64,000 bases of DNA from Theocolax elegans. Lineage: Eukaryota > Arthropoda > Insecta > Hymenoptera > Cerocephalidae. The stretch spans positions 12,367,505 through 12,431,504 of the forward strand of contig CM047427.1 of NCBI GenBank assembly GCA_026168455.1, given 5' to 3'. Of this stretch, positions 1,572-55,805 are shown one piece after another (position 1 is the stretch's first letter; each line of letters starts with the position of its first letter). The translations under genes were made by a program, and so were the position numbers. The notes beneath the pieces are model-generated. The model made no database searches, was not told where the DNA came from, and saw nothing but the letters and a program-made list of their open reading frames with translations.

Positions 1572-3071
1572 TACATTATGTATAAAAAATATGATAAGAA
1601 GAGAGATACACTAATCTATAGATATTAGTAATTTATTGATTAGTTTCATTTTAAACTTTTTAATAGTGGTTGCTACAACCAATATTTGTAAGTTCATAAA
1701 AGTAAATTATAAACTCATAAAGTCCTACTGCAGGTAAATTTAGTGTGATTATGCTTAGTCACATATATTGGACAAATGACCATTTTAAATGTTTTATTTT
1801 CTACCAGTAATGTCACTGACTATAGTCTATAGTATTGAAAAATATTACGCAATAAGTTTAAAATTATAAAAGACTACATTATTAATAAATAATTAACACA
1901 TGTAATAAAAATAAAAAATTTAACGAGTATATGTAATTTGTCGATTTTATCCTTCACTGTTAGCGGATACGTGAAAAGAACGATGTTGACAATTAACGCA
2001 TACACAAATAAATAGAATTTATTTATTTACTGTGCCAACAATTTGTTCGGTTGGTTTATAGAACACTTTAGGTACATTACGCTCTTTACGAGAACATATC
2101 GCAAAGTTATATAAATAAAAAAATTTAATTTACAAACGCAAATTTATCATTTAATAATCTAAATTATTCTTCACATAAATGATAAGTTATTTTTATAAAT
2201 AATCCAATAATCTGTAAGATTACAATGTTAAAATCAATGATAACTCTTATTTATGTAATTTAATTTACATTTTAATGATATAGATTATAATATAAAATTT
2301 TCCCTTTAGACACTTTTAACTCTTAAGAGGATACTTTTCGAAACAATCGTTTTACTACTTTGCTTCAAGAAAAACAGTAATTTCTTGTAAAAAGTAACAG
2401 CGTAAATTATTGTTCTATATACAATAAAAATAAAAAGTCAAGGAAATAGAAAGTTTCGTACATCAATAACGAGCAATCGTCGTTGAATAAAACGTAAAAA
2501 AGAATTACTGTTTTTTTATAACTACTCAATTTGAGATAGAAGTTTCTTCGTTTTCGTCTCGAGTCCTTCAAAAAAAAAAAATATTTCAACAAAGCACGAC
2601 TTTGGATACTTCTTTAAAAACTAATTAAAGAATAATTTCAAAACTAAATCTATCAAGGGATTTGAGTTTTGATTCGACACCATTATTATAAGATTAAAAC
2701 TGTGTTTAAACTTTCCTACAGTTTCTTATAAACTGTAACCGCTTCAACTTAAATCAGCTAGGAATGAAGCTTTGTAACTGAAAAAAAAGAGAAGCTTACG
2801 ATCCATCCTTACCAAAACAAGTTGCGGATGTGTATGTGTGTGTGTGTGTGAACGTATATATATTAAAAAAGATTGAGGGAAAAAGTAAGTGAAAGTGTTA
2901 TACAAGCAGAAACCTATTATACGAGGATTTAATTTTTACTTGACCAGAAAAAACTTGAAATTTATAAAAAAAAAGGCACACAACTAGTTACGCGAGATAT
3001 AAATTTTACATTTAGACGTTGATGAAAATAGTATCTTGTTTTATCAAAGCGAAAAAAATTATATACGTTGT

Positions 3072-3616
3072 GCAGTATTTTCTGGTAGAAATCGGTTTTT
3101 TCTTCCATGTGGTGTATATAAATTAATGGACTTAAACGAGTTAGTTATTTTGACTTGTTAAAGTTCAACTGTAAGATTTTACGTTAGAATTCAACTTGAC
3201 AAATATTACGTTAATTATCCAATTTGTAGTAAATAGTCCCTATAGTAGGAATTAAAATAATCTTTTAAGGTATAAATTAGCCATTTATTAAAAAACATGA
3301 ATAGGAAAGAGCTCGTTATAGCCATTTCTTATTTTGAATAATTAAAATTAATGACTCTTTTACCAGGATTATTATTATTTTCATTTAGAAAACTAATAAT
3401 TTTTGGGTATTGCAGAAACTGTAATCCAAAAGTTATATTCGATTATCAATTTATAAATTTAAAAAATTCAGGTATGCCGTTTAAAATAAATACAAGGAAA
3501 AAAATTAAAAAAAATATCTTTCGTTTAAATTTTATAATTATTTAGCCAATTTCTGGTGAGAACTGTCCATATATTACGACCAAAAATTGTACAATTTCTA
3601 CCAGAATACGCAAATA
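3072..3616. mobile_element. Degenerate inverted-repeat element
   Basis: TATTTTCTGGTAGAAATCGG near 3077 is matched in inverted orientation by ATTTCTACCAGAATACGC near 3595, about 545 bp apart, with weaker inverted similarity just inside. It is probably an old non-autonomous DNA transposon. No clear target duplication is visible, so its limits are approximate. Confidence 0.35.
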
Positions 3617-6600
3617 AAGAAAAAAAGTTCTCAAAAAAATGAAACGAATGAATAAATAATAAACTGACAATGAAACTAATGCATGCATACGCATACATAT
3701 AAAATTTGTTCTCAATTATATGAAGTAAAGTGAAGTAAATACATTAACGCAAGGTATACCGAATTTATATACATTTCCTTTGGCGTTAAGATTACACAGT
3801 GTATCGAGAGTCTCTCCCGAACAGCAACCAATATAAATTTGCCTTGACTCTGCTCAGACGGTATAAAAGAAACGAAAAGAAAAGCCTCTCTTCCTCTCTC
3901 TTGCACAGGGGCAAAAACTCGCGTATATCCTTGGTCAAGCTAATTCATTTGAAATGGAAAGCGAGGCCTCTCGAGGCCTTCCTCGAAAGAATAAAAGCTC
4001 AAGAGAGAGAGAGAGAGAGAGACAAGAGTAGTCCAATCAACGTGCCGTGGTACTAAATCACTATTAAGTGTCACCGTGCGCGAGTCTAATTGACGAAGAG
4101 CGGTAATTATGGATCTGAAATTACATGGAATCCAACTGTGGGGGTAGAAATGTTTTTTCAAGATCAGATTTTTCTTCTTTTTCTTTTTATATCGATTCTT
4201 ATCTATATGCCCTTCAAATCTTTGATATTGCGATCAATAAGAATTTTTCAATGCGGGAAATGTCAGAAATTCGTGTGTATGTGGGTATGGATGAAAGTAT
4301 TATTTTTATGGCAGTATTCGTTTCTTTCGGTTAAATCGGGATTGTTTGCTCGCATTGTCGCAATGTCGATGTAACAGGTTTAAGTGGAAAATATCGGAGG
4401 TCACTTTTTTTTTCTTTTTAAGTTATTTAATGACTAAGCTCTAGGTTTTATAGTTTTCTTTGCAGTGCGTGTATGTGTGGGTGTGTTTGTGTACACCAAC
4501 ATACAGTTTTCTAAGCATACAGTGAAAAATGTAGATTTTTTTTTACTAAACTACGAAATTAGTGTTATTTACGAACATGTGACATTGCAATGTTTATCGA
4601 ATATATCGAATTGCAATATATCGAAAGTCAACGATCTCTATGCCAATATGTTTAGTTCTAAAGATTATTGCTGTATTTTATACGAATCTAACAAACACGC
4701 GTATCGCGTATTTTTCATTTGTAATAAATATTCTGTTTACGAAATAAAACTTATGTAAATGTAAATTGTAGCAACGATGCATTTATTATACTTGGTACTC
4801 AATCATTAGATGATTCGTAAAAAAAATGAAAATATCAGTTAGAAAGAAGTAACGAAGCGCGTAGTAACCAAATATTTATACGTACGAAATAAAAAGTCAC
4901 AAAACTCGATTAAAAACCAAAATATTATAGATTAATAATTCTAACGTATATCAACAAGTTAAATTATCATTTAAATTAATTAAAAGAAAAAGAAGAACTA
5001 CATGTTTAATCAAATAATTCGATAGACATTAACCTCGGAGTACATCGTAAACGGAGATACAAAATAATGTTGTAAAGGAAAATAGTCCGCGTGAACAGTT
5101 AACGCGTATATACTGAAAATTTAGCCGAGGTATACGCGCTAATTAAACTTTTCGGTTAGCTCGGCTCTCATCATAATCAGTCGGTATACTCGTCGTTATC
5201 AACAAGCTTCCTCTATATCTCTCTCCCTCTTTCCCTCAATTCGACATCATGATTTACCGAGAGCAAATGTTTGCCCATAATTCTGTGGGTACGGAAACAG
5301 AGCCTGTACGGCGATATCTTCCAACAAAGGTAATAAAAAGGCGATGTGTCGGAGAAGAGAGAGAAAGAGAGGAAGACATCCTAACAACTCCCTGGATTTA
5401 AATGCTCTCAACGAGCAAATCCTTGATAATAATCCTGTTAATCTACGTGTTCAACCAAGACTCGACCTAATGATACTACCTGCATTTCGTACGCTTCGTC
5501 TGATGGAATTTCTTCCAGAGATTTTTCATTTTCACGGATTGCTGGGAATTAAATACATTTTTAAATTTCCTTTTTTTGTGATTGACGAGTTGTTTTTTAA
5601 TAATGACAGAGATTGATGTTTTTCTGTTTTTCTGTTTTTTTTTAGAGAAACTGAGAGAATTGGTGATGTAGGTCATTGAATTTTGTCGAAATTCGGCAAA
5701 GTTCCACATTCTGCCTATCGATTTTTATTACGTATGTATAAGAAAATTCAATTGATTTGTTTCGCGATGTGTTAACATTTACAAGTTGATATATTGAATA
5801 TTTTATTACGATTTTTATTGAATTACTATCCAGACAATTAAATCTTTTACTTTAACGATAAAATTCAAATTAGTATTCAATTTTTTTTAAATATCTTGTA
5901 TAAATAATATCTAAAAATTATAAAAATCACGTTTGAAATCACTATTTTGACAATTACACGTCAAAATTGCAAATAGCACGAAGTATTAGGACAAACTACT
6001 TTAGATTACTTGATAAAAAGCGATTTCTCAAATTTCATCAAAATCGATGACCCACATAACCAAAACTTTCCTATTTAGTGCAGATATACACGTTATTAAT
6101 TCAGTAAGAAAATGCATTACCCCGGTTACCAGTAAGTTTAAATGTACTTTAACATTTTATTTGAATAAATATTAACACAATTTTTAAAGTGTAATGTAAA
6201 GAAATGACGATTTTGAATTATCACTTTCCCTGCATTGCCAGCGTGTGTGTATATATTAAGAAAAATAATAATAATGTAGAAGAATGTTAGTGTTTTATAA
6301 GCACCGATGAAACAGTGAGAGTTTAGGTTCGTTGAACTTGTAATTGACACCTCTTGTCATAATTCGAGCTGAACGCTTACTCGTTGCGAAATATCTAGCG
6401 TGACAAATTTTTGTATCTGTAATCGATTATGCAAAGTGAACTAAAATTTGAACTAAAAAATCTTGTATACTAAAAACCCATGATAATTTTTAAGCGCGTA
6501 TATGATTAATTATTTAAACAACCTTCTGTACATCGAGAAATGCATCAAGTTAAAATACATTCGTATCGAATGTTTTGTAGCATCTAAAAACCGCGAGTCA

Positions 6601-34665: not shown

Positions 34666-34860
34666 ATCATGTATCAAAGATAACTCAGTCAATTTTTTAC
34701 CGATTTAGCTGAGATTCACAGGGTAACTTCGTCATAATGTAATTAGATAATGGTCCTATTTTCAGATATATAGCACTGAAACACTTTAAGTTATGGCATT
34801 ATTTTTAATTCCTTAGAAACGGTTTTGTAGCATTATCTTGAAATGTATTAATTCTACATA

Positions 34861-35491
34861 AAAACTTTATACGGACGAAATGTTCGTCTCAAAATAACAA
34901 AACTTTTTCCTATTGTACACTTAACGCTCAAAACAATATTTTCGAAGATAAACATAGAAAAACGGTCAAAATAACGAAAAAAGCACAAAAAAACACGTTT
35001 TTTCGCAATAAAACAAAATGTATTGTTTTTACTGAAAAACTTTTAATGAACGAAATGTTCGTCCCAAAACAACAAAACTTTTTCCTATTGTACATTTAAC
35101 GTTCAAAACAATATTTTCGAAGATAAACATAGAAAAACGGTCAAAATAATGAAAAAAGCACAAAAAAACACGTTTATTCGCAATAAAACAAAATGTATTG
35201 TTTTTACTGAAAAACTTTTAATGAACGAAATGTTCGTCTCAAAATAACAAAACTTTTTCCTATTGTACACTTAACGCTCAAAACAATATTTCCGAAGATA
35301 AACATAGAAAAACGGTCACAATAATGAAAAAAGCACCAAAAAACACGTTTTTTCGCAATAAAACGAAATGTATTGTTTTTACTGAAAAACTTTTAATGAA
35401 CGAAATGTTCGTCTCAAAATAACAAAACTTTTTCCTATTGTACACTTAACGCTCAAAACAATATTTTCGAAGATAAACATAGAAAAACGGT
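34861..35491 (+). repeat. 175-bp tandem repeat, about 3.6 copies
   Basis: The motif ACGAAATGTTCGTC recurs with starts near 34875, 35050, 35225 and 35400, exactly 175 bp apart. Whole units are nearly identical, with a few substitutions. Each unit carries the small palindrome ACGAA-ATG-TTCGT. Central tandem repeats of this size are known in Helentron-associated elements and can seed satellites. Confidence 0.9.
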
Positions 35492-37159: not shown

Positions 37160-38640
37160 TATAAGCTTATTTCAAAATTAATATCTAAGTAATTTATATA
37201 TTTACCCTGAATATGTTCTCGGTCTTAATAATTATAAGTGTCATTCTTTTAAATTATTGTATTTATTATTACTTAGTAAGAACTTTAATAGTAAAATAAT
37301 AAATACAACATTAAATGCAAATTTAATGTAATTTAAAATAAATTAAAAAATGTAATAATAAAATGTTACAAACCATTAATGTATACCAGATCAACCTTGA
37401 GAAAGATTAAACATCGCCAAAACTATCCCAATACAAAACAAGAGGCTCGTGGTTATTGTTAAATTGAACCATTATTCTTCCACTCACTACCATTGTTACT
37501 CTTTTGAATTAAAATTCACTAGTAGGTGAATTACTCCTATAATTCATAATTATCTTATATAAATTATCTTTAAATTTAATTCTAATGTATTCTATACAAT
37601 TTAAAATATAAAATGTAAAAAAATATATAAATATTACTTAATTATTGACAACTTACGACAACTTAATATTTTCAAAAATAAATAAAATATAAATCTTATT
37701 CAATAAATAAATTAACTAAATAATAAATAAAAATTATTTACCATCCAAAAATAGTTATTATTCTATTATTTTCAAACACTGCCAACATTGGACAAATACT
37801 GGACAAGAGCTTCTGCTATTTTGTAATGCTCACTTAACTTTATATTAGAATAACTAATATCATACAGTAAAACATCATGAAAATACATAATGTATATACA
37901 TAATTTTATTTCAAAATTAATATCTAAGTAAATTATATATATTTACCCTGAATATGTTCTCGGTCTTAATAATTATAAGTGCCGTTCTTTTAAATTATTG
38001 TATTTATTATTACATAATAAGAACTTTAATAGTAAAATAATAAATACAACATTAAATGCAAACTTAATGTAATTTAAAATAAATTAAAAAATGTAATAAT
38101 AATGTAATAAAAATGTCACAAACCGTTAATGTATACCAGATCAACCTTGAGAAAGATTAAACATCGCCAAAACTATCCCAATACAAAACAAGAGGCTCGT
38201 GGTTATTGTTGAATTGAACCATTATTGTTCGACTGTCTACCATTGTTACTCTTGTATTAAAACTGACTAGTAGGTGAATTACTCCTATAATTCATAATTA
38301 TCTTATATAAGTTATCTTTAAATTTAATTATAAAGTATTCTACAATTTAAAACATAAATAAAATGTAAAAAAATAAATATTACTTAGTTATTGACAACTT
38401 ACGGCAACTTAATATTTTCAAAAATAAATAAAATATAAATCTTATTCAATAAATAAATTAACTAAATAATAAATAAAAATTATTTACCATCCAAAAATAG
38501 TTATTATTCTATTATTTTCAAACACTGCCAACATTGGACAAATACTGGACGAGAGCTTCTGCTATTTTGTAATGCTCACTTAACTTTATATTAGAATAAC
38601 TAATATCATACAGTAAAACTACATGAAAATCATATAAAAA
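37160..38640. repeat. Tandem duplication, two units of about 740 bp
   Basis: 37160-37895 and 37905-38640 align at an offset of 739-746 bp with few substitutions and small indels. Both contain TTACCCTGAATATGTTCTCG, CCAGATCAACCTTGAGAAAG and CCAACATTGGACAAATACTG. On the minus strand each has an exon-like segment with an Asn-rich frame (SNNGRQSNNNGSIQQ in the right copy, then a stop) that could come from the disordered part of LARP1 preceding DM15. That identity is only a guess. Confidence 0.85.
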
Positions 38641-39326
38641 CTATGTGTACATAATGTATATACATAATTTTATATACACAATAAAATAAATAAACTAACT
38701 ATCCCTTATATTTATTGTCCGTTTAAATAGTGCCATCAGCGCCATCATACACACATAAGAATAATGTATATCGCATTTTATGTAACCCGCGTCCCGTATC
38801 CAAATTTGAATTTCAAATGTTTTTAATTTTTTTACAAAAATATTTATTTATAACAATTCTCTTTTTTTATTTATTTTTTAATACAAAAAATCGAATAAAA
38901 AAAGGAATTATAATAAAAAATTTCAATTATTAAAAAAAACTAATATTTTTATAACAAAATTTGATATAAAAAAATTAAAAACAGTAAAAAATATTTACCA
39001 CACACAAAAATAAAATTTTGAAAATAATCGAAACGTCAAATTATTCTAAAATTTTAAATTAAAATTTAATATAATTTTTAAATAAAATTGAACAAAAAAC
39101 TTTGTTCTTAAACTTGAAAAATTTGGACTTGAACGTTAAATAAACATAACGAATTTATTGTGTCCGCGAATTATAAGAATATATTGATTTTATATTACTT
39201 AAATATATTTGTCTCTTCAAATATTATAATTACTTTCTTCTTAATTTATTTAATTAATAAAAAAAAGAAATGATTAACGTTTACATGTTATTAATAACAT
39301 TGTAATTTAAAATAGAAGTTAATAAT

Positions 39327-40173: not shown

Positions 40174-41847
40174 TTTGTTCTGTATAACTGTTACTGATGG
40201 TGGTTTAAAATCGACGGTCGTTCAACTTCATTATCATTACGCGTCAAATGACATTCAATCTTGGTAATTGACAGTAACGCGTGCATATTACGTCAATTCA
40301 ATTTTGTTTCATTGTAGTCAAACTCTTCACTCACATATTATTTACTATTCCAACCGTTTTTAACCGTTTTACAATGAATTTAACGTACACCATAAAACAT
40401 ATAATTTTAAAAGAATGTGAACAATTTCATAAGTAAAAATATATTGGTCAATTAATTTGCAGAAATAACTCGAATAAAAACATTATTACTGGAATAAAAT
40501 TACTTAGAACAAATATTTTCCCAGAGCTTACATCATTAGTTCATTTTCTCTTTTATCTACAGTTACACGCAGGCCGAACATCATTTTTTTGTTTCCTCGT
40601 GAATGACCATGATTTCTTACTTTGAAATAAACACTTGAAATTGTAACAATGCTATTTGAAGTTAATATTCGAACACGATAAGGAGATAAATAAAAGTATT
40701 TCTACATTAACAAAATTATTTTATTCAAAATTATTACATTGTTTATTGATTAATATAAAAACAATCAGAAAAAATAATACTATATTGTAAAGTCAAATTG
40801 ACTATATTTGTTATATAACAAAAATGATGTATTGTTTATTAATATGACAATACAGTATACTCATTTTTGTATTGCAAAAGTCTATTTATTCTGTAATAAA
40901 CAATATACTAATTTTTGATTTTGATAAAATATTTTCCTCCGTGTATACGTGTTATTTTTTAATTTAAAAAAAATATTGTCCTGCCAACTTGATAGACGTA
41001 TACAAATATATAAAATCAACCCTTAATTAGTTCAATTTATAGTTATACAATGTATACAATTAAAATATTTGTCTACGAAAGTATTACTTTTCAAAAGATT
41101 TGATTTTGATCATCGTGTATTGTTCGCAATTAGCCATTGTATAAAATGTATTCATTGTGTGCATGAAATATCGGGGTGGCATACCTCGTGGTTACCGACC
41201 GAGGAAAGTAATTAAATGTTTACAGTTATTTAACAAAATCTGCTATTTTATGAAAACTCCATATATAAAGAAAACACTAAGCAATTCAATATTACGTCAT
41301 CATTGTGTAAGTTAGTAAATTAAAGAAACCGTCAAAAAAGCTTACGCGAAAAATTATGTATAATTTCAGTGCGAACATTTTTGATAGTGGAATTGAAATG
41401 TAAGCTTTAAATTTTGCAGAAAAATAAACGATTCATAAATTTGATGCTTATGCATATGGTAGACTTGTTGTATAGACATATCTTATTATTATTTATTGCG
41501 ATATAGCTGTTGATGGATAAACAAAATTAAATGGCCGGTAAACGATACGTTTCTCGTGTTGGAGTCTCCATTTCAACCACTTTGGAAATGCAAATACATC
41601 TTGCTGTGTATCTCCATGTAAATATTGCATTATTAAGATTCTGATGCTTCCGACTAGTAGCTCCATGTCAACCTTACAACACCAATATTATCATTGCAAC
41701 ACGATCGAAGGAAACTAATTAAAACATTAATAGATAATTACGATCTCTAATTTTCAACCGAGTCGTAAACGTCGTGAGCAACCAATACAAATCTCATTGC
41801 GTGTAATTAGTCTCAATCTAACTAACGACATTCCCTTTGGATCCCCA
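40174..41847. other. Non-coding stretch between the two large elements
   Basis: AT-rich flanking DNA with a MITE at 40705-40943. No exon found. Confidence 0.5.
40705..40943. mobile_element. Diverged MITE, TA target duplication (CACGGAG family)
   Basis: The right end in inverse is CACGGAGGAAAATATTTTAT; the left end CATTAACAAAATTATTTTAT is its diverged partner. TA flanks both (40703-40704, 40944-40945). The inner arms also pair (..ACATTGTTTATTGATTAATA with its inverse). 239 bp. The right end matches the element at 48982-49221. Confidence 0.65.
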
Positions 41848-42290
41848 CTCTCTTAAATTAAAATAGTAAAACTTTTACTATTTTCGATAGTCAAGACAGT
41901 TTTTACTTTTTAAAAAGTGTATAATTTACTATTTTAGTAAGTAACACATGTATTTACTATTATAATGGTTATTATAAACTATTTCAGTTGTAAAAGTTAT
42001 TTTTCACCAATATATTAGTGATACATTTACTATTCACAAAATTAAAAATTTTTGCTTTTAATAAGTAAACTAAATTTACAATCTAAATAGTTCATATTGA
42101 CTATTATAATTAGTGAACAATTGGTTAACATTAAACAAGTTAATGTTTTACTAATAAATTAGTACTTCATTTTACTATTTTTAGTAAAACATCTGGAATT
42201 CACTAATATATAGTAAGATTCCACTTGAAAAATAGTAAAAAACCACTTTTTTTATGGTAGTAAGCTACGACCACTATTTAAATAGTGACT
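41848..42290 (+). repeat. Left TIR and subterminal AATAGTAAA array
   Basis: At least ten TTTACTATT or AATAGTAAA motifs in both orientations lie in about 440 bp, e.g. near 41863, 41872, 41935, 42025, 42172 and 42232. The array ends at a CpG-rich promoter-like patch (CCCGCGCGCATTATAAGCAC, 42311-42330). Confidence 0.8.
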
Positions 42291-42310
42291 GTTTCCCGCT
42301 CTTTCTAATC

Positions 42311-42336
42311 CCGCGCGCATTATAAGCACGTGAGTC
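42311..42336 (+). promoter_or_regulatory. Putative core promoter of the SAMD3-like gene
   Basis: CCCGCGCG is followed by ATTATAAGC (TATA-like) and CACGTG (E-box), about 65-80 bp before the first ATG. A CpG-rich spot in an AT-rich element, well placed for transcription start, but unproven. Confidence 0.35.
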
Positions 42337-42392
42337 GCGATCCAGTGAAATTCAGATTATCATCGGACAATTATTCTACAACACAAGGCATC

Positions 42393-45300
42393 ATGGATGA
42401 ATATATAAAATTAAGAACTCCAGACCAATTATGTAATAAATTAGATAATATTATCGATTCGACGACTCTCCAAATACTTAAAGGTATGTTAAGAATTATT
42501 TATTTGAAGTTATAGGTTATGTTGCTAAGCATATGTATTAGAGTTATACATACAGCACAACATATTCAGTTTATTGTTGCTTATACTATTTTATTTAATA
42601 TTACTAGTACATATTGTTAACTATAAGCAACAACAATTAATTTGTGCAATAATTGTGGCAAAACATTCTTTGTTAGTTTTATACAGAAATTATGTGTTTA
42701 TCAAATTTTCTAATAATAGTTTAAAGTTGTACTATTTGCATAAATTATTAATAAATAATGATTAATATTGCGTTTTCTAATCCTTTCTACTATAATCAAT
42801 TGTTTACAACAGTTAATTTGAACAATAATAACTGCATGGCGTGCTTTATTGATTTATAATTGCATTTTGATCGGTCAAATTCTTGAATAATAATTCTTTA
42901 AAATATCTAATAATTTTACTAGTATTTATTCTATATGTACAAATACTTCTAATATTAATTAGCCTAATCCAGTTATTAAAACTATTTATTTTATAAAATA
43001 ATATTAATTTTATACATGTTTCTAACGACAAGTTTGGGTATAGCTGTACTATTGGCAACATTTATTAATGAATAATAATTAATATTGTTTAGTTTAATTT
43101 TTCTTACTATAATCAACCATTTACAACAGTTAGTTTGAACAATAATAACTGCATGGCGTGCTTTACTGATTTTCAATTGCATATTTATCTGTCAAATTTA
43201 CAAATAATAACAATTTTCAGTATCTGATAGTTTTAGTAGCATTTATTGTATATATATACAAATACTTATAATATTAATATGACTATTGTAGTTATTAAAA
43301 CTATTTTTCTATCAAATAATATAAATTTTATGCATGTTTATACTCTAACATATATATATATAAATAATTTGAGAAAATGAGATTTGAATAAGGGGAGATG
43401 TATATTAAAGCTTTGAGGATTGCATATTTCATTTTTAGTTTGTTGTATTAATAGGTGCAGTTACTTTTGCTTATTAATGATATAATAATAATTATTAAAT
43501 TTATTTATTTATCTAATAATTATTTATTTTAATTGTAAACTAACTCTTTTTAAGTATTACCTCAAGCCAGCGTAGACAGCTCTTCAAGCACTTTTTTTGC
43601 TTATTGTACTCTAACTTAATGAAATTTTATTCAATTAAAGTCTAATTAGGCTCAAATTAAAGATATTTGAATTCCCTACAAAGTGTATTAATCAGAATAT
43701 ATAATATTTGGGTGACAAAAAAGTTGGCTAAAAAGATATCTCATTTTTTTGGAAATTATGAAAAAAATAATAACATTTTTTTAAAAATTCTTAAAAGAGC
43801 AAAGACAGGCAAGTTTTTAGATGAGCATAGACGTGCCCTTGTTCGATTGGTAATAGCCGAACTTATCGCCACACACAATGGCAATCAGTAAGTTAAAAAT
43901 TTATTTGTAGTAAATGTGTGTATACGCACAGGCATTGACTTTTCAGACATATATTATTACATATTTAGCGCATTAATATTAATATCTCAAATAATTCTTT
44001 TAGTTATATGTCTCATGATGCATTAGAAGCTTTAGCAAGAGCAATAGTTACAGAATTTCCACTTTTAAAACACCCTCGTTCTGAATGTCCTTATGTTAGT
44101 AAACGTTTATTATTTACTATATATTTATTTTTATTTGTATTACTCGATCTTCAGTGCAATATTACTTACATTTTAGTCTCATTACTATGTTCGTAATGGA
44201 GGATTTCTTTGGTATCGATTAACCGCTGAGCGAAAAAAATTAGATGTAAATAAAAAAAAGTATAAGATATCAGTATCAAAGAAAAGAAAATTGTCAGATG
44301 GCGATGCGGTCATACCTCCTTCTGATACATTGATCTCTGATGAGGAGTTGACGGAAAAGGTATACGTTATAAGTAATAAAATTGTCAAATAATTATTGCT
44401 TAATTTTTAAGAAAATTCTACACTCGTAAATCCGGTTTCAGTAATTAATTATTGTTTACCCAGATTAATTTATTGAAATTTAAGTTTCCTTCGGAACAAA
44501 ATAAAAATGAAATATTTAAAGTTATGCAAGAATTATTCACAAGTAGAAGAACATGGATCGAAACGGAAACTCCATCGGTTGATGAAATTATTAACAAATA
44601 TCCTCGTTTGACAAGTTACAATGGTCAACTGGTAATTTTTCTTTTTTACAAAAATTTGTTATAAATTATTGTAAATAAAGCTTCATTGTTACATATTATT
44701 TTGTTACAGATTGATCAAGAATTTGAAAGTATGTATCCAAATAAAGGGGATAATTTTATAACAAAGTTTGTTTCGAATTATGAAACAAAAATATTAAAAT
44801 ACGCAGAACTATCGAAACCGTATTTGTTAACTAAATATAATCACTATGAACATGGTAAATAAATACTTATTTTATTTAATTGGAAATAGCTATTTACAGT
44901 TTAAAAGAGTTAAAAGCTCCGCTTGCTTGTATATTTCTAACTGTCTATTAACTCTGCTATAAAATGTTAAATATGTTTTTAAAATCTTATTTTTCATACA
45001 ACTAATTTTTTTAATTTTGAAATACAGTATCTTACTTAAAACTTTTGAGAAATTAACAAATTATTTTGAATTCTAGAAACATTGAAGGCTCTATTGATTT
45101 TGATTGAACTTCTTCCGGTTTCCAATGCTATAAAGTATTCTTCGAAGAAAGGAGAAAAGTGCAAAAAACCTCGACAACTTCTGGAAAGTGCGCACAAATG
45201 CATAATAGAATTTATTCCAGTTAGTGAATTCGTATATGTATTATTTTATGTATTTTATTATTATGTATTTTTTCAATTAGTGCATATTTTTTATAGGAAG

Positions 45301-45641
45301 TTCAAAGTTTACAAGCATTTGTCGACCAAAAGAGGAAGACTGCAGATGGACCAGTACAACCGTATCTAATTGCAGTCAAAGGCACAAGAACTAATTTTTT
45401 TATTCAAGGCGATAACTGGACTTTACAGCGCGATAACAACTTCGAAATTACTAACGCATTCGATTTATTATTTAAATTTTTCTACGTTTTTAATCTGGAA
45501 TTTCCAGTTCAATTAAAAAACTTTTTTCATTTCATGCAGTGCTATGTTTACGATTTATCAAAATTGTTAACATCAAGCACAGTTTCTTCTTTTTATATAA
45601 ATTTAAATTCTATTGCAAATGCATCAGATACTGATGAGTGA
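42393..45641 (+). CDS. Multi-exon SAMD3-like uncharacterised protein (about 450 aa)
   Basis: I reconstruct exons 42393-42483 (MDEYIKLRTPDQL.., donor AAAG|GTATGT), 43696-43887, 44004-44094, 44177-44359, 44464-44631, 44710-44854, 45077-45219 and 45297-45641 (ends ..ASDTDE, TGA). From 43696 onward every GT/AG junction is in phase and there is no internal stop. The link from exon 1 is unsettled: donor phase 1 does not fit the 43662/43683/43695 acceptors, which need phase 2. Either donor GGTAT|GTTAAG is used or a short exon exists (an in-phase candidate follows an acceptor near 43554). Recognisable segments are LDEHRRALVRLVIAELI, the AIVTEFPLLK and NGGFLWYRLTAERKKL blocks, a basic KKRKLSDGD patch, and RRTWIETETPSVDEIINKYP then IDQEFESMYP. 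This layout resembles the C-terminal portion of SAMD3-like proteins, widespread and unstudied in ants and cnidarians. No SAM domain, transposase triad, signal peptide or membrane segment is seen. Function unknown. Confidence 0.75.
42780..43360 (+). repeat. 317-bp tandem duplication inside intron 1
   Basis: About 42780-43085 and 43097-43360 align at an offset of 317 bp; ACAATAATAACTGCATGGCG occurs in both. Divergence is moderate, so it is older than the 54.7-kb duplication. Confidence 0.8.
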
Positions 45642-45829
45642 ATAGTAGTAGTAATCTAAGCAAAGAAGAAATATTTAAACATTTATTATTTTTAATATTA
45701 TATTATATTTAATATTTTAATGCATTTAATATTATATTTTATTTAATATTATATATTATATGTTTTTTGTTTAAATATACAGTTTTGAAACAAACAAGTA
45801 AATATTTACTTTTAACCTCGTAGAAATAT

Positions 45830-46107
45830 ATTATATCATGCGGGGATGTTTTACTATTTGAATTAGAAAATATCAACCTTATGAAATAGTAAGTATAAAC
45901 TTACTTCCCAATTAGTGCATACATACTATTTAAATCAGTGAGTTCTCACTGTTTCAAATAGTAAACATCACACTTTTTATGTAGTAAAAAATTTTGCTAA
46001 ATGAAATAGTAAATAATTACTAATTCATAGTTGCATACTTTTTACAAACTGAATTAGTAAATATTTACTATTAAACAGTTGTTTTTTACTATTTTAATTT
46101 AAGAGAG
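45830..46107 (+). repeat. Right subterminal array and TIR
   Basis: AATAGTAA motifs occur near 45885, 45957, 46008, 46063 and at the terminal repeat itself, mirroring the left end. Confidence 0.8.
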
Positions 46108-47449
46108 CATAGTCGTAATATTACAAACATCGTGTAGTTTGGTCGCATTTACTCATCGAGACCAGATTCACGCGATTAGAACCTCGAAGACGCCGTCTAA
46201 GCGATTCTGCGATTACACGATACTCTCTCTCTCTCTCTCTCACACACACATTCTCTCTCTTCTTCGTCTATTCAGGAATGTGTGTAAACGTACCAAGTGA
46301 ATTCGGAGGAGCTTCTATTAGCGCAACACTGAATATTCTAGGATATAAATAATAAAGGAATTGATCGTTTGAATTGTGGGTGTTATAAGACGGACAAAAC
46401 GACGTATATAATTTTCGAATAAAGGGAGTTATGCTGAAATTTCGTTTAATTGTGTAAATATCTTGAAAACTATGAGCGACTCAGCAAATTGGATAAAATT
46501 TAATATTGCTGATTCAACAAGCTTCGTCAGGTCATATTTCGTCGGTTTCAAAATAAAAAGATAATCAATTTTATCAAGTATACTTTGATTCGAAGAGTGT
46601 TAAAAACTATCTTTTTCTATCAGTTTGCTATTATGTGAATAAATATTTGAAAAATGTAGAATCATTAACATTTATTTCACTATTACCTACCACTTAAATA
46701 AATTTCAATATTTTAAACACAAATATTGAGGTAAAAGAGAATAACATGTGAAGAATATTTTACTTCAAAATGTATTATTGTAGAAGAAAGTTAAGAGTCT
46801 AATTTCCTTCTAATGCCAATCTAGAATGCATCGAAATTTTTGTTTTAAAAGCGCAGTAATTGGTATTTTTAAAATAAAAGACAGTAAATATACTGCTTTT
46901 CCATAATTTATCATATATTTTTAATTAAAATAATTTTTTCGTCTCTATTTACTCGGTCTATAAGTTTTGAGTATTACATCCTGCTAAGATGTAGAAAAAG
47001 CACAGTAATAAATAACTACATTCTTTCGGTACGAATTTAGTATAAAATGAATTGTTGCTAATACAAAAAAAAGTTTGCTGAAATATATAGATAATACTCA
47101 ATGCAATCAAGAAAGTTAGAGAAATTATTAAAAAAAAATTTTTAATTGAAAATGAAGTAGCGATACCAATTGTTCCGATTACCATCCCTGAAGAAGAGAA
47201 GCTGATATTGACATACACCGGTAGATTATGAAGGAATTTGAGACAAACACAATCTTATCTCATCTCCTCGAAACCCACAAACTTTCGAAAATCCCACGAA
47301 ACAGGATAACAGTTTTTATCAATCCTATAGAGACTACGATGATATAATACAGGTATAAGAAAAAATCGCGATAAGAAGAGGCTAATCATCGTCCTAAAAC
47401 CACAATGTAAAGGAAGATTGCTTTAGACCGATATTCCATAAGGTATGCA
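46108..47449. other. Non-coding stretch with CT repeat
   Basis: A CT/CA microsatellite at about 46223-46260, then AT-rich DNA. No gene supported. Confidence 0.5.
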
Positions 47450-53688: not shown

Positions 53689-54730
53689 GCGTGAAACCAA
53701 GCGGGAGACAGAAATGCTAACAATATGCGTCCATTTCATGTTCTGGAGCAAAGCTGCCATAGAGGCTGCGCACGATTAATATATATATATACGCGAGCAT
53801 TCGGAACTATTATAGATCATTGAATTGCAGATGCCCGACGGGGGTAAAGGCTATTGAATTAATGTTAACGCGAGCACTCGCAAACCCGTCGACGTCGGTG
53901 TTTGACTTTCCTCGTTGTACAAAACCACACCGTCTTTATGTATGTATAGCGCTTTTCTTCTCCTACAAACCGAGCACGACTCTCGTTTTACCTTGAGCCA
54001 ACGTCACAGAGGGGGAAAACTCCCTTGGTAACCCAACTAGCATTTTTCGACACAATTAGACCCAAAATTCCTCGAGGATCCAATTGCTTGCTCGCTCGAT
54101 GTAACGTTAAGCTTGTTTCGAGATCATTTTTATTACTCCTTTCTTCCTCTCTTTTGTGGACTTGAACGTCGATTTATAAATAATGCATATACATCACGGC
54201 TTTTCCAATGCAAAGTATTGATTTTATTGCTGCGTACGCCAATTGCAATTGAGGAATCCAATTTGTTTCAGTTAAAATATTCAGTTGATTATCGATTTTT
54301 GTATTATTAACGCACGCCTACATTTTATTATCGTCGAAGTAAAGCAATTATAACAACATTTATTAATACTGATAGAAGCTGCTCGACTGTAAAATTTATC
54401 AAACGTTATTAGATGTTTACTTTTACGAATCATTTTATTTCGCAAACGTTTTGCTTTATTTATATAATTAACAATTTATTTATATTGCACATGATATGTA
54501 TTTACACAGATGATTTACGCGAGTATTATTATATTTTTTCCGCGATATTTTGAAACAGTTTTTCTTGCTCGAAATTTCAATGCTTGAAATTGGATAGAAA
54601 ATAGTAATTCTTTTTTGACTATTTTCTGGACATTTAATGGGAGGAACGCAACCTCAATACATGCAAATTATATTTCCGAAATTCATAAAGATAAGTTTCG
54701 CTTTGAAAACTTTAGTATGTATGAAAATAA

Positions 54731-55805
54731 ATGTAATTTTTAAAGATTAGAACTAAATTCAATCTCCATTTATACATTTATAAATTAAAAAATATCTTCA
54801 TACGCGACAAAATTTGGACTTTAGTCCAATAATTAGCTAGAAAGTGAGAGAAAAAGTGTTTCATCGGAGGAATAAAAATGGACATATTTTCTGCTCACTC
54901 TTTTAAAACAATATGTATCGTGACAGTAAATTGCCGAGTTCGACTATAGCTAATTCACTATTTCTTGAACTATTTCATTGGGTAATATATTGATGAAACA
55001 ATTTCCAAGAACCACCGACAACTTGGTCAAGCTAAAGGTTTTGAGATGCAATGTGACAGGTTGCTCGGTAATTTTGAATTCGTTATGAACGGTTATACAT
55101 GCCTCGTACTGTGGAACATTTAAATGTGTTTCAAAATTAAGTTAAACTATATGATTTATATACTTTAAAGCTTCGGAATTGTATATCTTTATATGGATTG
55201 TTAGAGAAACGTTATTGTAAGCGCGATGCTGAAAACATCACCAAGTTTTAAACTACTATAGTGATTCATCGACTTTGACATTTACCGAGTTTCAGTAATC
55301 TTTAGTTGACACATCGTTGAAAAGTAAATGTAATTTTTAAAGATTAGAACTAAATTCAATCTCCATTTATACATTTATAAATTAAAAAATATCTTCATAC
55401 GCGACAAAATTTGGACTTTAGTCCAATAATTAGCTAGAAAGTGAGAGAAAAAGTGTTTCATCGGAGGAATAAAAATGGACATATTTTCTGCTCACTCAAC
55501 TTGGTCAAGCTAAAGGTTTTGAGATGCAATGTGACAGGTTGCTCGGTAATTTTGAATTCGTTATGAACGGTTATACATGCCTCGTACTGTGGAACATTTA
55601 AATGTGTTTCAAAATTAAGTTAAACTATATGATTTATATACTTTAAAGCTTCGGAATTGTATATCTTTATATGGATTGTTAGAGAAACGTTATTGTAAGC
55701 GCGATGCTGAAAACATCACCAAGTTTTAAACTACTATACTGATTCATCGACTTTGACATTTACCGAGTTTCAGTAATCTTTAGGTTGACACATCGTTGAA
55801 AAGTA
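54731..55805. repeat. Young tandem duplication with an internal 119-bp difference
   Basis: 54731-54900 recurs at 55328-55497 (offset 597) and 55021-55325 recurs at 55499-55805 (offset 478). The segment 54901-55019 is absent from the second unit. The copies differ at only a few bases (for example TACTATAGTG versus TACTATACTG), so the event is recent. No coding content. Confidence 0.9.

Follow-up and report, generated by a model that had tools for sequence, protein, structure and literature searches.

A SAMD3-like gene as the probable second gene of a two-gene, RAG1-fold DNA transposon in Theocolax elegans

Introduction

RAG/ProtoRAG transposons such as BbRAGL make 5-bp target-site duplications, end in CACAGTG termini and carry a RAG2-like second gene, while Transib elements make 5-bp duplications and carry one gene. 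The CMC group (CACTA/EnSpm, Mirage and Chapaev) produces 2-3 bp duplications, bears subterminal repeats and encodes a transposase of the wider RAG1/Transib class. SAMD3-like genes form a scattered, uncharacterised family that is oddly expanded in some animals. According to PMC4482050, elements of the PIF/Harbinger group (PHIS) mostly have two genes, a DDE transposase and a second open reading frame (ORF) of unclear role, which is Myb/SANT or YqaJ, and ISL2EU of this group makes AT duplications. Here, we describe a 4.3-kb element with a SAMD3-like gene in a 64,000-nucleotide stretch of the Theocolax elegans genome (assembly GCA_026168455.1, contig CM047427.1, forward-strand positions 12,367,505 to 12,431,504), referred to below as the window. 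The element is very probably a non-autonomous, internally deleted copy of a two-gene cut-and-paste transposon, in which a RAG1-fold transposase gene precedes a SAM/SAMD3-like gene in the same orientation, and which has moved recently in trans with 2-bp duplications.

Ends, insertion sites and copies

The 24-bp terminal inverted repeats (TIRs) of the window element are complementary at 100% of positions. A TIR pattern scan of the window with up to 3 mismatches gives 2 matches, against a mean of 0.00 in 100 shuffled sequences. TAGTAAA motifs crowd the ends, with 9 in the left 453 bp and 7 in the right 328 bp (16 such motifs in 781 bp together) compared with 4 in the intervening 3,380 bp. An earlier note, made from the letters of this DNA alone, had described both the perfect inverted termini and the subterminal arrays, and both hold up.

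A search of the 658-Mb host genome with the left 400 bp as query returns 14 rows, one of which is a second match to the same element, and thus 13 loci including the window: twelve elements and one 152-bp fragment (L020). Other TIR-bounded copies enclosing the same gene, whose existence the earlier note had raised, are among them. Seven elements of this family, A, are near-full (the window copy, L011, L012, L013, L014, L016 and L017), at 4,260 or 4,573-4,577 bp, the longer ones having one more intron-repeat unit (~317 bp). They are 99.6-99.9% identical in pairwise comparisons of aligned bases, and only 30 sites vary among them, all except one as singletons and three within the damaged end of L017. 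Such sparse variation points to a recent burst of the family. The SAMD3-like frame is open in six of the seven, L016 having a 1-bp loss. Window bases 43077-44519 are missing from three 3.1-kb copies (L009, L010 and L018). L019 is both shorter and damaged, and L015 is longer; right ends are damaged in L017, L019 and L015. The 3.1-kb L010 is inserted in a diverged gene of the transposase kind on the opposite strand (L010:1134-1949 and L010:5159-6124; 29% and 20% identity), which it splits at about codon 352-383.

Matching dinucleotides flank eight of the nine family-A copies with both ends readable (CA, TA, AA, AA, TA, TA, TG and TA); the earlier note had made no mention of the CA pair around the window copy. 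Of 12 copies, 8 begin and end with CTCTCT/AGAGAG, and 3 more have it at a single end. A genome-wide TIR scan with up to 2 mismatches gives 26 matches and its reversed control 0; the 18 exact matches are all ends of elements from the left-end search, belonging to 10 of those 12. TIRs on dispersed copies, together with a duplication of fixed 2-bp length, are features of a cut-and-paste DNA transposon.

Three other accounts of the ends are rejected. Duplication-free (Spy-type) insertion fails on the 2-bp duplications in eight of nine copies, and a TTAA duplication with CTCTC/GAGAG outside it by chance fails on the recurrence of CTCTCT/AGAGAG across copies. An autonomous partner with identical termini is rejected because no further element appears at 0 mismatches and the left end of L015 is off by one base.

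A longer copy with a transposase-like gene

A genome protein search with the SAMD3-like query, in which 100 of the 163 candidates were scored, returns at least 126 matches to exons at E up to 1 and places the SAMD3-like exons of L015 ~7 kb further on than in other copies. Read together with L056, this copy matches bases 1-1936 of the window element (with one extra intron-repeat unit), continues with 6,693 extra bases and then matches bases 1937-4241 at 99.91%. Ns in L015 fall outside the element only, and L056 has none. On the same strand, the extra DNA encodes a protein that shares 52% identity over 696 residues with an 850-residue ORF of a related family, C, described below. It also holds a SAM-like exon (44% over 34 residues to the family-C SAM exon, E 1e-8) and supplies the 5' part of an exon of which the window copy keeps only what lies from ~43785 onward. 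From this shared exon onward, the SAMD3-like exons of L015+L056 are stop-free. Because the 6,693 bases hold a SAM-like exon and the missing 5' exon part, the window copy is read as having lost them, and a loss from the window copy would be the simplest reading of the difference. The left breakpoint lies inside a ~113-bp inverted repeat with 80% identity (L015:4199-4311), a possible cause of the deletion.

The transposase-like gene of L015 is itself broken, by a ~1.5-kb insertion near codon 50 and a frame change near codon 154. The insertion (L015:5157-6573) is an inverted repeat along nearly its full length (92%), and part of it also occurs at L015:51-678, left of the element. With one change in its left terminus (CTATCT) and an altered right terminus, L015 no longer looks mobile.

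Family C and homologues in other animals

Three of the divergent SAMD3-like loci, whose matches are nearly equal (35-37% identity), appear to form a single family, C, described here from two of them, L053 and L054, which are 99.8% identical. Upstream of the SAMD3-like exons, L054 encodes a SAM domain (Pfam SAM_1, 2.4e-5; 25 bits, the cut-off being 23), and upstream of that domain lies the open 850-residue ORF, running from L055 into L054. The right end of both L053 and L054 reads ...TTCACTAATTCATTTTTAGAGAG and is followed by TA. This terminus is that of family B, with 93.5% identity over the last 247 bp. Family B is 1.75 kb long, has no match to the SAMD3-like protein and is flanked by TA on both sides in both copies examined. 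Family B and short relatives with the same type of subterminal array lie at L047:2001-3793, L049:2001-3753, L052:2001-2387 and about L051:494-848; their ends are of the CTCTCT or CTCACT type, and some are pieces of only a few hundred bp. Twelve further divergent SAMD3-like loci at E <1e-3 include G000:C3:47211239-47212346, C1:29187859-29188966 and C7:54605847-54607098.

At E up to 1e-3, homologues of the 850-residue ORF number 64, with named sources in Microplitis, Cotesia, Monomorium, Eretmocerus, Belonocnema, Trichogramma, Planococcus, Chrysoperla, Culicoides and the sea cucumber Holothuria. Four of the 64 also align with the window protein, each time after the ORF-homologous part: P0041 (Holothuria, 1,215 residues; window residues 31-390, E 2e-28), P0037 (Eretmocerus, 1,381 residues; window residues 16-417, E 4e-21), P0056 (Holothuria, E 3e-14) and P0062 (Trichogramma, E 2e-5). 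In P0033 (Chrysoperla), the family-C SAM exon matches at 2e-6 and the window protein only at E 0.26. The remaining homologues show no SAMD3-like part in a search whose length limits favour proteins about as long as the ORF. The joined gene models may be real fusions or merged neighbours. Family C and the gene models of Holothuria and Eretmocerus all have the order transposase, SAM, SAMD3-like.

The predicted fold of homologue P0002, which is 53% identical to the family-C ORF, is RAG1-like. The 50 Foldseek matches listed for it comprise RAG1, BbRAGL, Transib, P element and BAH-domain entries; other transposase kinds are absent from this list, which does not speak against any of them. The predicted layout has two N-terminal zinc-finger-like parts, an RNase-H-like core and a C-terminal BAH-like domain, and invariant D/E residues occur in the RAG1-like-fold protein of family C and, broken, of L015. 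Judged by the predicted fold of this homologue, the complete form would encode a DDE/RNase-H transposase. As L015+L056 and family C encode a separate RAG1-like-fold protein ahead of the SAMD3-like part, the SAMD3-like gene is read as the element's second gene and the window copy as a deletion derivative.

The SAMD3-like gene of the window element

In the window copy, a plus-strand frame from 43696 keeps GT-AG junctions and is stop-free up to the terminal stop at 45641. The earlier note's single gene in one frame stands on this evidence, but its count of about nine exons does not: seven are supported from 43696/43800 onward, and an eighth, with its ATG at 42393, joins in frame solely via a weak AG at 43798-43799 (Table 1). 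Nor is the gene intact, as the note had it, since its SAM domain and the beginning of exon 2 have apparently gone with the deletion relative to L015+L056. The short form may or may not still make a useful protein, with predicted exon 1 joining through a weak acceptor and the SAM part apparently lost.

Pfam finds no SAM domain in the window protein, with a best E of 0.15-0.22 and nothing near a cut-off, and a PDB sequence search with a 421-residue version gives no match at E up to 10. Nine of ten other frames of the element have no Pfam match, and the tenth reaches E 0.054, under its cut-off. Folded alone, the last exon has a predicted local distance difference test score of 46.8, too poor to inform either way. 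A first protein search with the 421-residue version, which includes 34 intron or junction residues, found none at E 1e-3 among 6,494 candidates; its length limit excluded three of the four relatives found later, and the fourth had a low score. No relative was found in viral contigs. The label SAMD3-like is provisional: the C-terminal part would resemble that of SAMD3, and related loci (family C and L015) have a SAM domain; the window protein itself does not.

Table 1. Features of the element and its SAMD3-like gene, in window positions
Feature	Position	Strand	Remarks
Whole element	41848..46107	+	4,260 bp; probable internal-deletion derivative of a ~11.3-kb two-gene DNA transposon (family A)
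Left target-site duplication, 2 bp	41846..41847	.	CA; sequence
Left TIR, 24 bp	41848..41871	+	CTCTCTTAAATTAAAATAGTAAAA
Left subterminal array	41872..42300	.	TAGTAAA / TTTACTA motifs
Predicted exon 1	42393..42483	+	ATG, 30 codons, GT donor; also in L015; could belong to either parent gene
Repeat of ~317 bp, two copies	42722..43350	.	in large intron; one more unit in 4.57-kb copies and L015
Deletion junction	43783..43784	.	L015+L056 with 6,693 bp at this point
SAMD3-like exon 2, 5' part deleted	43800..43887	+	predicted, weak acceptor; shared coding sequence from ~43785
SAMD3-like exon 3	44004..44094	+	
SAMD3-like exon 4	44177..44359	+	
SAMD3-like exon 5	44464..44631	+	
SAMD3-like exon 6	44710..44854	+	
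SAMD3-like exon 7	45077..45219	+	
SAMD3-like last exon, with stop	45297..45641	+	strongest matches to divergent paralogs
Right subterminal motif array	45780..46083	.	
Right TIR, 24 bp	46084..46107	-	
Right target-site duplication, 2 bp	46108..46109	.	CA; sequence

Elsewhere, the window contains a 175-bp unit in tandem (34841-35491; 3.7 copies, 94% matches), a ~740-750-bp unit present twice (37161-38687; pieces 83-95% identical, ~21% GC with a strong C excess), and two interleaved direct duplications within 1.1 kb (54724-55783; 177 bp at 99% and 287 bp at 100%).

Proposed mechanism and competing explanations

A complete copy would make the RAG1-fold protein, the putative transposase, which would recognise the CTCTCT ends and the subterminal motifs, excise the element and reinsert it with a 2-bp stagger. 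The window copy would be passive: with both ends kept, but the first gene and the part of the second that codes for SAM apparently gone, it could be moved in trans by transposase made elsewhere. The SAMD3-like protein is probably the partner of the transposase and may act as a transposition helper, with a role in end-binding, complex assembly or chromatin. Its seemingly old linkage with the transposase suggests that it matters to the element, and the existence of 3.1-kb copies without a complete SAMD3-like gene indicates that a complete gene is dispensable in cis.

Several observations weigh against this account. Within family A, L013 lacks a matching dinucleotide, and the sole transposase-bearing copy found, L015+L056, is broken, so that a working transposase source is not seen. 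Variation gives no signal of selection on the SAMD3-like frame (7 of 1,254 coding sites vary and 23 of 3,006 others, P = 0.55). In family C, L053 has frame breaks in both genes, the left end is missing from view (100 Ns stand there in L053), and neither Pfam models nor PDB sequences match the 850-residue ORF at E up to 10. Finally, the fold was predicted for homologue P0002 rather than for a protein of this genome.

The most serious competitor, though an unlikely one, holds that the SAMD3-like gene came from a host by a single capture and is a passenger with no role in transposition. The movement of L009, L010 and L018 without a complete SAMD3-like gene is in keeping with it, as is the lack of detectable selection just described. 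Against it stands the gene order repeated in family C at 35-37% identity and in gene models of Holothuria and Eretmocerus, which points to an old association. The earlier note's proposal that SAMD3-like genes spread as transposon cargo survives in part: they do travel with transposons here, but a status as chance cargo finds no support, the gene being read from L015+L056 and family C as the element's second.

There is very little to recommend the view that the 4.3-kb form is ancestral and that L015 arose by later insertion of a second, transposase-carrying transposon. The extra 6,693 bp do start and stop within the element and hold a nested insertion that is mostly inverted repeat; yet they complete the exon truncated in the window copy, with the frame running on, and add the SAM-like exon, and the visible part of family C shares this gene order. 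Least probable of all is the alternative, raised in the earlier note, that the SAMD3-like protein provides the mobility function of a superfamily not yet described; the longer copy would then be a composite. Although it is the sole gene recognised in the seven near-full copies, mostly with an open frame and with nothing near a Pfam cut-off in the ten other frames, family C and, in broken form, L015 encode a separate RAG1-like-fold protein, which gene models of other animals place ahead of their SAMD3-like part, and the window gene lacks its 5' part.

Significance

If the SAMD3-like gene is the second gene of a transposon, carriage by transposons offers a simple reason for the numerous SAMD3-like genes of some animals, many of which would then belong to transposons and call for masking in annotation and in studies of gene families. 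For the question of how RAG1 gained its partner protein, the element provides a two-gene relative of RAG1/Transib. Because the family is young and its copies nearly identical, its ends, duplications and helper function are directly testable.

A broader idea is more tentative, and on present evidence somewhat less probable than its negation: vertebrate SAMD3 and other animal SAMD3-like proteins may represent the second, helper protein of an old RAG1-fold superfamily with 2-bp duplications and a BAH-bearing transposase. If so, SAMD3 would join RAG1/RAG2 as a second instance of a host gene derived from a RAG1-class transposon, through the partner gene and not the enzyme, and helper-only short forms could spread on their own account. 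In listings of open-access papers on SAMD3 or SAM domains, no entry connects SAMD3 with transposons; among these papers, PMC11346364 speaks of SAMD9 and PMC7037442 gives a zebrafish expression list. A search of open-access literature on 2-bp duplications and EnSpm found nothing.

Comparison with known systems

In family C and L015, a SAM domain stands upstream of the shared C-terminal part of the second gene, and that part would resemble its counterpart in SAMD3. Set against RAG2-like second genes, the second gene shows SAM_1 in family C; in the window, its C-terminal part brings no Pfam hit close to a cut-off, and the predicted fold of its last exon is of low confidence. Like most PHIS elements (PMC4482050), the complete form would have two genes; its second gene, however, is SAM/SAMD3-like, and its duplications are CA, TG, AA and TA.

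Short (2-bp) duplications and subterminal arrays are features shared with CMC elements, as may be a transposase of the wider RAG1/Transib class. Unlike the CACTA branch, whose terminus is of the CACTA type, the ends here are CTCTCT, and to our knowledge the second gene is unlike those of CACTA elements. No Pfam model, a CACTA one included, matches the 850-residue ORF at E up to 10, the resemblance in motif order being one seen by eye.

The predicted fold of the homologue has the RAG1-like core of RAG/ProtoRAG. Compared with RAG1, ProtoRAG and BbRAGL, the element has 2-bp duplications, CTCTCT termini, a SAM/SAMD3-like second gene and a C-terminal BAH-like domain in its first, and compared with Transib it has 2-bp duplications and two genes. 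By predicted fold, the element would belong to the RAG1/Transib class, but with duplications of 2 bp and ends in CTCTCT it follows the pattern of neither RAG/ProtoRAG nor Transib, nor does its terminus obey the CACTA rule; its superfamily may already bear a name in Repbase or Dfam.

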